The notes beneath the pieces were generated by a model. The model was not told the DNA's origin. It made no database searches and saw only the letters and a list, made by a program, of their open reading frames with translations. Both the position numbers and the translations under genes were made by a program. DNA of 6,623 nucleotides from the NCBI GenBank assembly GCA_025774865.1, contig JALGZO010000657.1, forward strand, positions 1 through 6,623. The letters run 5' to 3'. This document shows, piece by piece, positions 1-6,623 of the stretch (position 1 is the stretch's first letter; each line of letters opens with the position of its first letter). The DNA comes from a bacterium. Lineage in GTDB: Bacteria; ARS69.

Positions 1-1215
1 GTGGTGAGTACGCGCGAGCGACGCATCGTGGTCAGCGTGGAGCAGGCGCTCTCGATGTCGTATGCCACGCAGCGTTTCGTGCAGCTCGGTTGGCGGGTCA
101 TCCGCGTGGAGGCCACGCCGAGAACGGGTGAGCGTTCCAAAGGGGATCCGAACCGCTACATCGGACGCGTCGTCGCCGGCGAGGACCGCCACAGCTACTA
201 CGTGGGGCCGAACGTGGGCAAGCAGGCCGTCGCCATCGACCTGAAGCGCGAGGAGGGGCGGGAGCTGCTGCACCGCCTGATCCGGGAGCTCCCCGTGGAC
301 GTGTTCTGCACGAACACTCTCCCGGCGCGCCACCGCGACCTCGGGTTCGATTACGAGACGCTCGACACCGTCCGGCCGGATCTGATCTGGTGTTGCATCT
401 CGGCGATGGGGCTTTCTTACCCGGAGGTGCCCGGCTACGATCCGATGATGCAGGCGCTTTGTGGGTACATGGACATCACCGGGCATCCCGACGGCCCGCC
501 TCTGCAGTGCGGCCCGCCGCTCATCGATCTCAAGGCGGGGGACGAGGCATTTGCCCAGGTGCTGCTCGCTCTCCTCGACTGCACCGAGAGCGGCCGGGGC
601 CGGCGGATCGACATCTCCATGGCCCGGGCCGCCGTTTCCTGGCTGCAGACCTTTCTGCCCATGCTGGACATGGGAAGCGCCCCGTCGGAGATCCGCCGAG
701 CGGGCAACGAGCACCGCCAGTTCATTCCGGTCAATGCGTACCCGACGCGAGACGGGTTCATCTTCCTCGCCGTCGGCAGCGACGTTCAGTGGGCCCGTCT
801 GGTCGCGCAGCCACTCTTCGCCTCCTTGGACGAGCCGGGGCTGTCCACGAACGAGGGGCGTCGCGCCGCGAAGGAGGAGATCCACCGGGGGCTGGCCGGG
901 ATCACCGAGACGCGAAGCCTCGCGGAGCTCACGGACGTGCTGTCGCGGGCGGGAGTGCCGCACGCGCCGATCACGCCGATCGAGGAAGTGATGAACCTGC
1001 CCTTCGTGGCGTCCACCCGGCTCGAAACCGAAGCACCGGACGGCCGGCGCATCCGGTTGCCGCCGGCGGCGGTGAGCACGCCGTTTCTCGAGGAGCAGGA
1101 GGGCAAGCTCGCGTTCGCACCCGCCTACGGTGCGGACACAAGCGCCGTGCTCGCCGAGGTCGGGCTCGGCGACGCGGAGATCCGCCGCCTCCACGAAGGG
1201 GGGGTGATCGCGTGA
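1..1215 (+). CDS. Class III CoA-transferase (CaiB/BaiF family)
   Basis: This is a 404-residue protein, about the usual length for family III CoA-transferases, which move CoA from a donor thioester to a carboxylic acid through an aspartyl-CoA mixed anhydride. The N-terminal Rossmann-like part is recognisable (YATQRFVQLGWRVIRVEAT, about residues 21-39), as is NVGKQAVAIDLK (about 71-82). The block PGYDPMMQAL near residue 143 precedes GPPLIDLKAGDEAF, whose Asp176 sits where the family's catalytic aspartate lies. The C-terminal part carries GNEHRQFIPVNAYPTRDG (about 236-253), typical of these interlocked dimers. The gene may start at GTG 1 or GTG 4. The window begins at this codon, so an upstream start cannot be excluded. 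The stop overlaps the next gene by four bases. Presumably it activates the pathway substrate as a CoA thioester; donor and acceptor are unknown. Family call is firm, substrate is not. Confidence 0.93.
   Translation: MVSTRERRIVVSVEQALSMSYATQRFVQLGWRVIRVEATPRTGERSKGDPNRYIGRVVAGEDRHSYYVGPNVGKQAVAIDLKREEGRELLHRLIRELPVDVFCTNTLPARHRDLGFDYETLDTVRPDLIWCCISAMGLSYPEVPGYDPMMQALCGYMDITGHPDGPPLQCGPPLIDLKAGDEAFAQVLLALLDCTESGRGRRIDISMARAAVSWLQTFLPMLDMGSAPSEIRRAGNEHRQFIPVNAYPTRDGFIFLAVGSDVQWARLVAQPLFASLDEPGLSTNEGRRAAKEEIHRGLAGITETRSLAELTDVLSRAGVPHAPITPIEEVMNLPFVASTRLETEAPDGRRIRLPPAAVSTPFLEEQEGKLAFAPAYGADTSAVLAEVGLGDAEIRRLHEGGVIA
1196..1204 (+). promoter_or_regulatory. Ribosome binding site for the FAD subunit
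   Basis: A purine-rich AAGGGGGGG stretch ends seven bases before GTG 1212. It supports that GTG as the start of the FAD subunit, although the same frame stays open far upstream. It lies inside the last codons of the CoA-transferase gene. Confidence 0.6.
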
Positions 1216-2081
1216 GCGAGCTCACCTACCACCGGCCGAAGACGCTCGCGGAAGTGTGGCGCATCCGAGCCGAGTTCCCCGAGGCGCTCTACATCGCGGG
1301 CGGGACCGACGTGATGGGGCTCGTTCGCTCCGGGTGCGTTGGACCGAAGGCTCTGATCTCGCTTCGCCGCATCGACGAGCTTCACGGGATCGAAGTGAAC
1401 GGGGCCGCCGACGGCGGGGGTACGCGCATCGGATCCTCGAGCACGATTGACGACGTTCTCGCGCACACCGCGCTCGGCGAGCGCTACCCGGTGTTGCACG
1501 ACGCCGCCCGGCCTTTCGGCAGCGTGCAAGTCCGCAACCTCGCGACCGTGGGCGGCAATCTCTGCAACGCCTCGCCCTGTGCGGGCATGCCCCCGCCTCT
1601 GCTCGTGTTGGATGCGCGGGTACGTCTGGCCGGCCCCGAAGGGGAGCGGGAGATACCGCTCGGCGAGTTTTTCGTGGGCCCGGGCGAGACGTGTCTCGGA
1701 CCGGACGAGGTGCTCACCGCCGTCGTGCTCGACCCGCCGCCGTCCGGGACCAGGTCGCGATACCTGCGAAAGGGCCGGGTGAGCACGGATCTGGCGTTCG
1801 TCAGCATCGCGGTGCTGCTCGGGTTGGACGGCGACCGCTGCACGCGGGCGCGGGTCGCCGCCGGTGCGGTGGCGCCCCGGCCGCTGCGTCTGCGCGCAGT
1901 GGAGCAGTTGCTGGAAGGCCGCCGCATCGGGCCGACGCTCTTGTCCGAAGCGCGCGCTCAGGTCGAGCGGGAGGTGTCCCCCATCACGGACGTGCGCGCG
2001 AGCGCCGAGTATCGGCGTCACCTCACCGGCGTTCTGTTTCAGCGAGCCGCCGAGTCGACGCTGAACGGAGATCGAAGATGA
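1212..2081 (+). CDS. Molybdenum hydroxylase FAD-binding (medium) subunit, XDH/CoxM type
   Basis: This 289-residue protein has the usual size and order for the medium subunit of xanthine dehydrogenase-family enzymes: an FAD_binding_5-type domain (about residues 1-170), then a CO_deh_flav_C-type domain (about 180-280). FAD-contact motifs are visible: AGGTD at 29-33 and ATVGGNLCNASP at 111-122. In the second motif the usual ASPxADxPP is ASPCAGMPP, so a commonly conserved Asp is replaced by Gly. The subunit passes electrons from the Fe-S subunit through FAD to an acceptor. No cysteine-rich insertion of the kind that holds an extra [4Fe-4S] cluster in 4-hydroxybenzoyl-CoA reductase beta subunits is present. 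The GTG start at 1212 overlaps the preceding stop (GTGA), and the end overlaps the next start (ATGA), which suggests translational coupling. The frame stays open upstream to 390, but that part is low-complexity shadow of the CoA-transferase gene. Confidence 0.93.
   Translation: MSELTYHRPKTLAEVWRIRAEFPEALYIAGGTDVMGLVRSGCVGPKALISLRRIDELHGIEVNGAADGGGTRIGSSSTIDDVLAHTALGERYPVLHDAARPFGSVQVRNLATVGGNLCNASPCAGMPPPLLVLDARVRLAGPEGEREIPLGEFFVGPGETCLGPDEVLTAVVLDPPPSGTRSRYLRKGRVSTDLAFVSIAVLLGLDGDRCTRARVAAGAVAPRPLRLRAVEQLLEGRRIGPTLLSEARAQVEREVSPITDVRASAEYRRHLTGVLFQRAAESTLNGDRR
2067..2070 (+). promoter_or_regulatory. Ribosome binding site for the [2Fe-2S] subunit
   Basis: GGAG lies seven bases before ATG 2078 and fixes the start of the iron-sulfur subunit. 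The frame stays open upstream to 1691, but without any conserved protein sequence. Confidence 0.6.
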
Positions 2082-2641
2082 CCGTGGAGTGCACGCTGAA
2101 TGTCAACGGCCAGAAGACGGTCCTTCAGGTGTCGCCACGCCACCGTCTCCTCGACGCGCTACGAGGTCCGCTCGGGCTGATCGGAACCAAGGAGGGCTGC
2201 GGCGCCGGTGAATGTGGCGCCTGCACGGTGCTCATGGACGGGAAGGCGATCAATGCGTGTCTTCTTCCGGTGCTGGAAGCCGAAGGGCGAGAGATCACGA
2301 CCGTCGAGGGATTGGTCCGCCCGGGCGGCCGCCTTTCGCCGATTCAGCAGGCCTTCGTCGAGCACGGCGGGATCCAGTGCGGATTCTGCAGTCCGGGAAT
2401 GATCGTGGCGGCCACGGCGTTGCTGAGAGCCAACTCGTCGCCGAGCGACGCCGAGATCCGCGACGCGCTGGCGGGCAACCTCTGTCGCTGCACCGGCTAC
2501 GTGCAGATCGTGGCCTCCGTGAAAGCGGCGGCCGACGAAATGCGCACCCGGGCGGCCGCGCCCGCCGGCGCGAGCGGCGGGGAACCGAAGGAAGCGCCGG
2601 AGGTCAGAAACGGGGTCACCGGGGGAGTTCGTGGTGACTGA
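2078..2641 (+). CDS. Molybdenum hydroxylase [2Fe-2S] (small) subunit
   Basis: This 187-residue protein carries both [2Fe-2S] clusters of the xanthine dehydrogenase/CO dehydrogenase small-subunit family. The plant-ferredoxin-type cluster ligands are Cys41, Cys46, Cys49 and Cys61 (GCGAGECGACTV then NAC). The second, all-helical domain has Cys101 and Cys104 (QCGFCSPGM) and Cys136 and Cys138 (GNLCRCTGY). All eight ligands are present, so this subunit looks functional. It relays electrons from the molybdenum site to FAD. After about residue 150 there is an extra Ala/Gly/Glu-rich tail of roughly 35 residues without a recognisable domain, making it somewhat longer than the usual 150-170 residues. 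It overlaps the FAD-subunit stop by four bases and the large-subunit start by about 8-11 bases. No signal peptide is seen, so it should be cytoplasmic. Confidence 0.96.
   Translation: MTVECTLNVNGQKTVLQVSPRHRLLDALRGPLGLIGTKEGCGAGECGACTVLMDGKAINACLLPVLEAEGREITTVEGLVRPGGRLSPIQQAFVEHGGIQCGFCSPGMIVAATALLRANSSPSDAEIRDALAGNLCRCTGYVQIVASVKAAADEMRTRAAAPAGASGGEPKEAPEVRNGVTGGVRGD
2621..2627 (+). promoter_or_regulatory. Ribosome binding site for the Mo-binding subunit
   Basis: GGGGGAG lies three bases before GTG 2631 and six before GTG 2634. The spacing favours the second GTG slightly, so the large subunit may be one residue shorter than annotated. Confidence 0.5.
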
Positions 2642-4907
2642 TCTGCGGTACATCGGCAAGGAGCGGACCCGGCCGGATGCGGCGGACAAGGCAGCCGGTC
2701 GGGCTCACTACGTCCACGACCTCGTTCGTCCCGGAATGCTCCACGGCAAGATCAAGTTCAGCGAGCACGCGCACGCCCGAATCAAGCGCATCGACACCTC
2801 GCAAGCGACGCGTCTGCCGGGCGTGCGCGCCGTGATCACCGGTTCCGACACCCCCGAGATTCGCATCGGGTTTCTGGGCGACAACTTTGCCCTCAAGCGG
2901 GACAAGGTTCGCCAGTTTCGCGACGAGGTCGCGGCCGTGGCGGCCATCGACCCGGACGTGGCGGCCGAGGCGGTGGAGCTGATCGAGGTGGAGTACGAAC
3001 CGCTTCCGGCCGTCTTCAGCCCGGAGGAGGCCCTGGCGGACGACGCGCCTCTGTTGCACGAACGCGATTCCGCGGGGCGGCCGCGGGCGACCAACGTCGT
3101 GGACGTGACCTGCCGTCACGAGTCGGGTGACCTCGCGGCGGGAGAGCGGGCGGCGAAGCACGTCGTCGAGGGAGAGTTCACGACCCAGCTCGTTCAGCAG
3201 AGCTGCCTGGGCACCGCCGGCTGCATCGCCGAGTTCGAGGCGAACGGAAACCTCACGATGCGGGCGAAGACCCAGATTCCGTTTCTCGCCCAGCGTCACT
3301 TCAACGACGCGCTCCGGGCGATGGGGCTCGCCGGCCGCAACACGCGCGTGATCGTGCCGACCCTCGGTGGCGCTTTCGGCACGGGACTCGACACGCACGC
3401 GTACGAGTACATCGCGATTCTGCTCGCGCACCGGACGAACCGTCCCGTGAAGATCGTCTACGACCGTGAGGAGGAGTTCGCGAATCTCTCGCCGCGACAG
3501 TCCGCGCGGGTGCGCGTCGCCCAGGGCTGCGACCCCGACGGCCGCCTGACGTTCCGGCGCGCGGAGGTGCAACAGGACAACGGCGCGTACACGTCGTGGG
3601 GAGCGACCTATCCGACCGTGATGCTGCTGCCCGCCACGTCTCTCTATCGCGTCCCGAACATCCGCTTCGACGCCCAGCTCGTGTACACGAACAACACTTA
3701 CTGCCAGGCCATGCGCGGCTACGGGAACCCAGAGATGACCTGGCCCATCGAAAGCAACCTGGACGACCTGGCCGAGGCCGCCGGCATCGACCCCTTCGAG
3801 CTCCGGATGATCAATCGCAACCGGCCCGGGGAGACGACCCCCATGGGGTTGAAGGTGGGCACGTGCGGGCTCGAGGAGTGCCTCGAGGAAACGGCGACGC
3901 GCCTCGACTGGAAGAAGAAGCGCGGCGCCCAGCGGGGCAAGCGTCGCGGCGTGGGGATGGCGTCGCTCATGCACGTCGGCGGCTCGGGCCGCATCTACCG
4001 CTCCGACGGCGGAGGGGTCATCCTCAAGCTGGACGACTTCGGTCACGTCAACGTCTCCTGCGGCGGAGTGGAGATGGGGCAGGGATTGCACTCGGCGCTG
4101 AGCCTGACGGTCGCCGAGTCTCTCGGTCTGCCGCCGGAACGTGTCACCATCAACCAGACGGATACGAGTACTTGCCCCTGGGATGTCGGAACTCACGCGA
4201 GTCGCGGTGCCTTCGTCGCCTGCAACGCCGCGCTCCTGGCCGCCGAGAAGGTGCGAAAGAAGATCTTCGCACTCGCCGAGGAGATCTTCCCCGCGGAGGT
4301 CGAGAAGAATCTCGAGCGCTACCGCCGGACGAACCCCGACCACCGACCGCCCCACTTCGACGTGACCGAGGCGTCCAAGGCGGAACGCTTCGAGCTGCGG
4401 GACGGCTTCATCCGGATCCGCGATGCACCGCGCGAGTCGTGGCTCCAGGTGGAGCTCGGTCGGCTTCTGCGGTCGATTCACTTCCGGGGCAAGGAGGGCC
4501 GGATGATCACGGCGGAGGCCTTCTACGAGCCGGACAGCGAGCTTCCCGACTGGAGTAAAGGAAAGGGCAATCTGTCGGCCGCCTACGCTTACGGAACGCA
4601 AGGGGCCGAGGTGGAGGTCGACGAGGAGACGGGAGACGTCCGGATCCTACGCATGGTGGCGGCGCACGACGTGGGCAAGGTCCTCAACCCGCAGACCCTC
4701 GCGGGACAGATCTACGGCGCCCTCGCTCAGGGCGTGGGCTACGCGCTCTACGAGGAGGTACGAACGCAGGACGGGCGAATCCTCAACCCGAGCTTCACCG
4801 ACTACAAGATCCCGACCGCCCGTGACATGGACTTTCCGATCGACGTCGTGTTCGTCGAGACCGCCGAGGCAGGCCGCTGGACCATTCGGGGCCAAGGGGG
4901 TCGGTGA
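2631..4907 (+). CDS. Molybdenum hydroxylase Mo-cofactor (large) subunit, 3'-frameshifted
   Basis: This is the catalytic, molybdopterin-binding subunit of an XDH-family hydroxylase. As written it has 758 residues. The small N-terminal a/b-hammerhead domain (about 1-130) is followed by the Mo-binding domain. Visible motifs are GGAFG (246-250), [11 protein letters not shown] (358-368) with Arg362 at the family's active-site Arg position, GVEMGQG (479-485), and [16 protein letters not shown] (511-526). Several of these resemble 4-hydroxybenzoyl-CoA reductase-like members more than true xanthine dehydrogenases, but substrate is not settled. The frame is native up to about residue 747; the last 11 residues (748-758) are out of frame. 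The conserved [12 protein letters not shown] block, with the catalytic Glu, lies in the +1 frame at 4879-4914. The break coincides with a 4-base tandem duplication at 4867-4874. Removing one copy gives an 801-residue protein ending at 5040. The truncated form should be inactive. Start is GTG 2631 or 2634. Confidence 0.9.
4867..4874 (+). repeat. Tandem AGGC duplication causing the frameshift
   Basis: AGGC occurs twice in direct succession (4867-4870 and 4871-4874), exactly where the large-subunit reading frame is lost. Deleting one copy joins VETAEA directly to AGPFGAKG, with the four-residue spacing between ET and GPFGAKG that I recall for this family. A four-base gain shifts the frame by one, as required. 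The neighbourhood has no long homopolymer, so a simple homopolymer miscall does not explain it. Confidence 0.75.
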
Positions 4908-5040
4908 ACCCGGTCTGGTGCCGACGGCGCCGGCCATCGCGAATGCCATTTACGACGCGGTGGGCGTACGGATCCGCGATCTGCCCATCACGCCGGAAAG
5001 AGTGCTCGCCGCTCTGAAAGGGAAATCAGATGTGCCCTGA
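4875..5040 (+). pseudogene. Displaced C-terminus of the Mo-binding subunit
   Basis: In the frame one base on from the main gene, this stretch encodes the expected end of the large subunit: [12 protein letters not shown], then [17 protein letters not shown], then [15 protein letters not shown], to a TGA at 5038-5040. The Glu of GVGEPG (codon 4906-4908, residue 758 of the restored protein) corresponds to the catalytic glutamate of the family (Glu1261 in bovine xanthine dehydrogenase). The segment has no start codon or ribosome binding site of its own that would make a sensible protein. It is read only if the frame is corrected or bypassed. Its end overlaps the aminotransferase start by 11 bases, consistent with an originally continuous, coupled gene. 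Confidence 0.85.
5017..5025 (+). promoter_or_regulatory. Ribosome binding site for the aminotransferase
   Basis: AAAGGGAAA lies a few bases before ATG 5030, with the GGG ending seven bases upstream. It is inside the displaced 3' end of the large-subunit gene and supports ATG 5030 as the start. Confidence 0.5.
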
Positions 5041-6202
5041 CCGCGACTCGAACTCCTCGCCCCACGTGCAAAGCGAGGTGCGACAGAAGCTTGCCGTGGA
5101 GATGATCTGTCCCTACGAGCCCGGGAAGCCGATTCGCGAAGTTCAGCGGGAACTCGGTCTCCAGAGGATCGTCAAACTGGCCTCGAACGAGAATCCGTTG
5201 GGGCCTTCGCCGCGAGTCATCGACACGCTCAACCGTGACCCGCTCGAGCTTCACACGTACCCCGATTACGACGGCTGGTATTTGCGGCAGGCGATCGCCC
5301 GCAAGCTCGGGACCCCCATGGAATCGATCGTGGTGGGCGCGGGCTCATCGGATCTGATGCGGCTGATCGCCGACGTCTATCTCGATCCCGGCACAGAGGC
5401 CCTGGTGAGCGACATCTGCTTTCCGGTGTACGCGAACGCCGCGCGAATCGAAGGTGCCAAGGTCGTCACCGTGCCGCTCGACGACGAGCTTCGCTACGAT
5501 CTCGAACGGATGCACGATGCCCTCACCGACCGAACCCGAGTCGTCTTTCTCGCGTCGCCCAACAACCCGACCGGACTGGAGATCTCGGGCGGGGAGCTGA
5601 ACGCCTTCATGGAGGAATTGCCCCCTCAGGTTCTCTGCGTGCTCGATCTGGCGTACCACGAGTACACGGACCCGGAACGGCGCGTGAATCCCCTGGAGCT
5701 GCTGCAACGGCACGCGAACCTGGTCCTGCTCCACACCTTTTCCAAGGTCTATGGTCTCGCCGGCCTGCGGGTGGGATATGCCGTCGCCGCCGAGGACGTG
5801 AGCGCGGCGTTGAGCCGCGTGCGCATTCCGTTCACCACCAGCACGCCGGCCCAGGTGGCGGGTCTCGTCGCGCTGGAGGACACGGAGCACACGGAGAAAT
5901 CGGTGACGCTCAATGACGCCATGAGGCGACGTCTGGCGCGCGACCTCGGTGCGCTCGGGCTACGGACGTATCCGTCGGGCGCCAACTTCGTGCTCACGGA
6001 CGCTGGCGTCGACGCCGACGCCGTCTTCGTGCGCATGCTGCGGCGAGGAGTGATCGTCCGCCCCATGCGCGATCCCCGCCTGAACACCTGCCTTCGCATC
6101 ACGACCGGCACCGAGGAGCAGCTGGACCTCGCGATCGGCGCCCTCGGCGAGGTGCTGGCGGAGTGCAAGTCTCCCACGCCGTCCGGGAGGGGTTCGGGAT
6201 GA
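5030..6202 (+). CDS. HisC-like PLP-dependent aminotransferase (fold type I, class I/II)
   Basis: This 390-residue protein resembles histidinol-phosphate aminotransferases. It has the HisC-like N-terminal [17 protein letters not shown] (about 28-44), [10 protein letters not shown] (52-61), NNPTG (178-182), Asp206 in DLAYHEY (pyridine-N ligand) with Tyr209, Lys239 in [10 protein letters not shown] (the Schiff-base lysine), Arg247 in RVGY, and Arg356 in LRITTGT, the expected substrate-carboxylate arginine. All key residues are present, so it should be active. HisC proteins usually have DEAY; here it is DLAY, and the N-terminus is about 20 residues longer than usual. No other histidine-biosynthesis gene is nearby. 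The context of CoA-dependent catabolic genes argues for a role on another amino acid, perhaps aromatic or imidazole-type. A true HisC activity cannot be excluded. It overlaps the next gene by four bases (ATGA). Confidence 0.88.
6185..6192 (+). promoter_or_regulatory. Ribosome binding site for the 3-hydroxyacyl-CoA dehydrogenase
   Basis: GGGAGGGG ends six bases before ATG 6199. It is a strong site that selects this ATG, giving about 24 residues ahead of the nucleotide-binding motif. Confidence 0.65.
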
Positions 6203-6623
6203 CCCTCGACACGCGACGCTCGCATCGCAACCCTCTACTCGAGAAGCCCGCTCGTGGGTTGCCGCGGCGAATCGCCGTCATCGGCGCCGGGACGATCGGT
6301 CCGGACATCGCGTACTACCTTGCCAGCTCCGTCCCCGGGCTGAACCTGACTCTGGTCGATGTCGTGCCCGAAGCGCTCGAGCGTGCGAAGAAGCGCCTCG
6401 CGGGCTACGTGGACAAGGGTCTCGCGAAGAGGAAGCTGACCGAGGAAGAGGCCCGCGGCGTCCGCGAGAACGTCGTCCCGACCCTGGACTACGGCGACAT
6501 CGCGGACTGCGACTGGGTGGTGGAGGCGGCGACCGAGAACCTCGAGCTCAAGCATCGGATCTTCGAGCAGATCGAAGCGGTCGTCTCTCCCGAGGCCCTG
6601 ATCACGTCGAACACGAGCTCCCT
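6199..6623 (+). CDS. 3-hydroxyacyl-CoA dehydrogenase, NAD-binding part (partial, 3' end cut by window)
   Basis: The first 141 residues are present. Residues 25-34 (IAVIGAGTIG) form the Gly-rich Rossmann dinucleotide motif, and Asp54 in LTLVDV is the acidic residue that selects NAD over NADP. The helical arm (ALERAKKRLAGYVDKG) and the block VVEAATENLELKHRIFEQIE, then ITSNTSS, are hallmarks of the 3HCDH_N domain; the serine of SNTSS lies where the family has a catalytic-site Ser. The catalytic His and the C-terminal domain fall outside the window. The enzyme oxidises a (3S)-hydroxyacyl-CoA to 3-ketoacyl-CoA. There is no enoyl-CoA hydratase domain in front of it, so it is not an FadB/FadJ-type fusion with an N-terminal hydratase; a C-terminal fusion cannot be judged. 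Related 3-hydroxy-acid dehydrogenases, including carnitine dehydrogenase, share this domain. Confidence 0.92.
   Translation, partial: MTLDTRRSHRNPLLEKPARGLPRRIAVIGAGTIGPDIAYYLASSVPGLNLTLVDVVPEALERAKKRLAGYVDKGLAKRKLTEEEARGVRENVVPTLDYGDIADCDWVVEAATENLELKHRIFEQIEAVVSPEALITSNTSS

Follow-up and report, generated by a model that had tools for sequence, protein, structure and literature searches.

A four-base tandem duplication puts the catalytic glutamate of a xanthine oxidase family molybdenum hydroxylase out of frame in a draft bacterial genome

The 6623-base stretch of DNA analysed here, referred to as the window, appears from its sequence to carry a broken copy of the gene for the molybdenum (Mo)-binding catalytic subunit of a xanthine oxidase family molybdenum hydroxylase, in which a tandem AGGC duplication displaces roughly the last 5% of the gene, including the codon for the catalytic glutamate, from the reading frame. 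We place slightly better than even confidence in the reading that this is a real, very recent null allele in the sampled population, known here from a metagenome consensus alone. The window is an entire contig (C661) from the draft genome of an uncultured bacterium; the draft comprises 785 contigs and is 92.65% complete with 8.3% contamination. All genes of the window lie on the + strand.

The Mo-subunit frame opens with GTG at 2631 and runs for 758 codons to an early stop at 4907, and the conserved C-terminal tail goes on one frame over to a stop codon at 5038–5040; both frames are found in the list of open reading frames, as an earlier note on this DNA had claimed. The first frame, assigned from that list, its domains and its codons, is readable to the GAG codon at 4866–4868, with the residues beyond that glutamate codon out of frame until the stop. 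In the second frame the tail (4873–5040, ending in KSDVP and the stop) restarts at GCC (4873), so that precisely four surplus bases separate codons that would otherwise be neighbours. Positions 4867–4874, which read AGGCAGGC, hold the duplication to which the earlier note attributed the shift. The closest genome for comparison is G002, from another genus of the same family. This nearest relative is collinear with the window from end to end (81.8% DNA identity), and its Mo subunit, with 85% protein identity, is continuous at the break site and is without exactly four bases at the AGGC repeat; base by base, the offset at the break is four bases and not one. The predicted uninterrupted protein of about 801 residues likewise agrees with the 808 residues of this closest relative, counted from its GTG. 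A tandem 4-mer is by itself unremarkable, with 26 such starts in the window and about five per kb in the genome's other contigs; what is not chance is the exact match of its position to a frame break, in a gene that all 77 testable orthologues carry uninterrupted. Two other accounts of the break were considered and rejected. An extra base in the GGGGG run at 4896–4900 is out as its cause because the conserved GPFGAK, upstream of the run, is already in the shifted frame, and separate translation of the tail from a GTG at 4822 is unlikely, as it would put about 17 unconserved residues first and no relative is split there.

The orthologue comparison indicates that the break is private to the window sequence. 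The 80 further orthologues come from Acidobacteria, Aminicenantes, Planctomycetes, Myxococcales, Deltaproteobacteria and others at 58–76% identity; the tail was located in 77 of them, and in all of these it shares one frame with the body, the remaining three lying outside this count, and it is the lack of a shift in these and in the nearest relative that supports this view. A naturally shorter form of the protein, which the earlier note proposed to look for by homologue alignment, is rejected, since neither the nearest relative nor any testable orthologue ends at a 4907-type position. The same comparison makes it very improbable that the shift is recoded, with ribosomes slipping +1 within the frame overlap (4507–4907) and still making a near-normal protein. 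The two frames do share about 400 stop-free bases, and a +1 slip on GGG-G at 4896–4900 would regain the tail at GVGEPG; however, a shift conserved at a slippery site, as expected of a programmed +1 frameshift gene, is used by none of the 77 testable orthologues, the unshifted relative also has the G run, which was therefore not selected for slipping, a slip there would leave the conserved AGPFGAK replaced by unrelated residues, and the duplication itself is without a stop-codon-linked slippery site. We give even less credence to the variant in which the duplication is real and tolerated, with +1 slippage at the GGGGG run yielding a low level of enzyme whose loop preceding the catalytic glutamate is changed.

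The earlier note had also raised a phase-variable switch, in which slippage at the AGGC repeat would switch the enzyme between on and off states. A tandem tetranucleotide does stand at the break point, but it has two copies only, where a simple-sequence phase-variable gene carries a tract of several that varies among strains, and no tetranucleotide tract of three or more copies occurs anywhere in the window. Moreover, the repeat is missing at this site from each of the eight close relatives examined at codon level, no orthologue is shifted, and the gene encodes a catabolic enzyme, not a surface or restriction function. This suggestion did not hold up, and we regard such a switch as scarcely credible.

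The consequence for the product follows from the position of the catalytic glutamate, whose codon (4906–4908) is in the tail frame. The intact relative aligns through the tail with both 4-hydroxybenzoyl-CoA reductase (PDB 1rm6) and the CO dehydrogenase large chain (PDB 1n5w), and through this alignment the displaced residue matches the glutamate of GAKGVGE at chain position 763 of 1n5w, the active-site glutamate. The glutamate of the C-terminal GxGE motif is thus present in the DNA of the window copy though out of frame, and in frame in relatives, which upholds the claim that the frameshift removes it. A Mo subunit ending before the GVGE motif should be dead, and the earlier judgement that the product is inactive as written is probably right, given the loss of this motif. 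In human aldehyde oxidase, where the equivalent catalytic base is Glu1270, exchange of the adjacent glycine leaves an enzyme with neither activity nor Moco (PMC6487702). The window product, lacking its last ~54 residues with the catalytic base among them, would be inactive and probably unstable or cofactor-free. A second effect would be loss of translational coupling to the downstream aminotransferase, because its ATG (gene start 5030) overlaps the original stop codon (ending at 5040) and the new stop at 4907 falls some 120 bases short of it.

Membership in the xanthine oxidase family is supported both by the domains of the Mo subunit (MoCoBD_1, MoCoBD_2 and Ald_Xan_dh_C, at 210, 259 and 93 bits with Pfam) and by the FAD and 2x[2Fe-2S] subunits encoded alongside it in one operon. 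These partners are the FAD-binding subunit at 1212–2081 (Pfam FAD_binding_5 and CO_deh_flav_C) and the [2Fe-2S] subunit at 2078–2641 (Pfam Fer2 and Fer2_2); both had been called intact, and neither has a frame break relative to the nearest relative. The best-scoring solved structure and NCBIfam model are those of HcrA, the alpha subunit of 4-hydroxybenzoyl-CoA reductase (1rm6; TIGR03194), with which the window system shares the three subunits (FAD, 2Fe-2S and Mo) and an aligned GPFGAK...E tail. In contrast to HcrA, the window copy ends short of the catalytic glutamate, and the neighbouring genes include a CoA-transferase and one that resembles an acyl-CoA mutase. Although 4-hydroxybenzoyl-CoA reductase is the nearest named enzyme, its name should not be applied on these scores, because even the intact relative reaches 551 bits, and the window copy 485, against a TIGR03194 cut-off of 994.55 bits. 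CoxL (1n5w) belongs to the same fold family and has the GAKGVGE motif with its glutamate at the equivalent place, but the score is far under the CoxL cut-off and the neighbouring genes differ.

Selective constraint on the displaced tail bears on the age of the shift. In comparison with the nearest relative, dN/dS is 0.18 in the body of the gene and 0.048 in the tail (tail dS 0.96), and the tail mismatches are distributed 2, 3 and 24 over codon positions 1, 2 and 3. These values indicate that the tail has been fully constrained almost throughout the divergence of the two lineages, and such strong constraint (dN/dS 0.05) implies that the shift, if real, must be very young. The substitution pattern thus points to a shift that is either very young or not real, as the same constraint is expected if the shift exists only in the assembly.

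An error of consensus or assembly, with the organism's gene intact and the four extra bases introduced through thin coverage, a mixture of strains or faulty joining of overlapping reads, is a serious contender to which we give somewhat under even odds. It would fit the absence of any decay in the tail, the intact state of every testable orthologue, of both partner subunits and of the downstream gene, and the fact that the whole window is one 6.6-kb contig of a fragmented, contaminated draft. A real damaging allele, for its part, needs high population frequency, or low coverage, to become the metagenome consensus. Against an error stands a survey of the genome's other contigs, in which ~34 kb of DNA orthologous to the nearest relative contained no further frame break attributable to the draft, which therefore does not appear to be riddled with frameshifts. 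This survey drew on targeted searches with four long contigs; a fifth gave almost nothing, and an untargeted comparison of 634 kb of the relative's genome found little overlap. Of the candidate breaks that it raised, those in L147 and L152 proved to be antisense frames or borders between genes, and that in L150 fell where a rearranged stretch meets the end of the contig. Equally, a perfect four-base tandem copy is typical of strand slippage and not of one-base homopolymer errors, and is uncommon as a short- or long-read error.

If the null allele is real, as we favour, a single very recent AGGC tandem duplication, the usual product of strand slippage, would have arisen in an otherwise conserved catalytic-subunit gene, and the window sequence would be a real allele of the sampled population. 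A frame break by four-base stutter is an ordinary event. The window case shares with bacterial frameshift pseudogenes formed by short tandem duplication the four-base tandem copy, the premature stop, neighbours that are intact and a remainder without decay, and it differs from them in its source, a metagenome consensus alone. A search of the draft for a second, intact copy of the Mo subunit found none, the next best match being a paralogue with 36% protein identity. A real break would offer a snapshot of the first step of gene loss in a catabolic operon otherwise under strong selection; as a caution, the operon of this draft genome should be scored as neither functional nor lost from the consensus alone.

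Two further features of the draft were observed. The window contig is 81.8% identical to the nearest relative (locus L103) over its full length, and the draft's other contigs are mostly 65–78% identical to it in the longer of their matches; either the operon would be more conserved, or the contig would be mis-binned or transferred. In an 18-kb contig (L150), the ends at 2–428 and 17831–18146 map close to each other within a single stretch of a contig (C98) of the relative, pointing to a rearrangement, a circular element or a misassembly.

The hydroxylase genes belong to a cluster found in many phyla, comprising an acyl-CoA dehydrogenase, a methylmalonyl-CoA-mutase-like large subunit, a family III CoA-transferase and the FAD, FeS and Mo subunits, after which a fused 3-hydroxyacyl-CoA dehydrogenase/enoyl-CoA hydratase and then a thiolase often come (window 1–6623; L103 1149–15489; L024, L026, L049, L051, L099 and others). 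The CoA-transferase was present in at least 36 of the 80 loci and the mutase-like gene in at least 21, both lower bounds given the short flanks. These neighbours suggest catabolism of a CoA ester, and the cluster may be an undescribed CoA-ester pathway; a literature search on the gene cluster and on four-base duplication as an error type found no useful paper. Within the window, the CoA-transferase (1–1215; Pfam CoA_transf_3, E 3e-68) begins with a GTG at position 1, its first codon at the contig edge, and is collinear with the relative. Downstream of the Mo subunit lie a HisC-like aminotransferase at 5030–6202 (NCBIfam hisC TIGR01141, 316 bits, above the cut-off) and, at 6163–6621, the N-terminal part of a 3-hydroxyacyl-CoA dehydrogenase/enoyl-CoA hydratase (Pfam 3HCDH_N) that is cut by the contig end and is present in the relative in full-length fused form. 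The overlap of aminotransferase start and Mo-subunit stop also occurs in the nearest relative (11065 versus 11075). Among the loci seen, a HisC-like aminotransferase lies directly 3' of the Mo subunit only in the window, the nearest relative and two Acidobacteria (L024, L026), and at some other loci the dehydrogenase or the thiolase takes the place directly after the Mo subunit.
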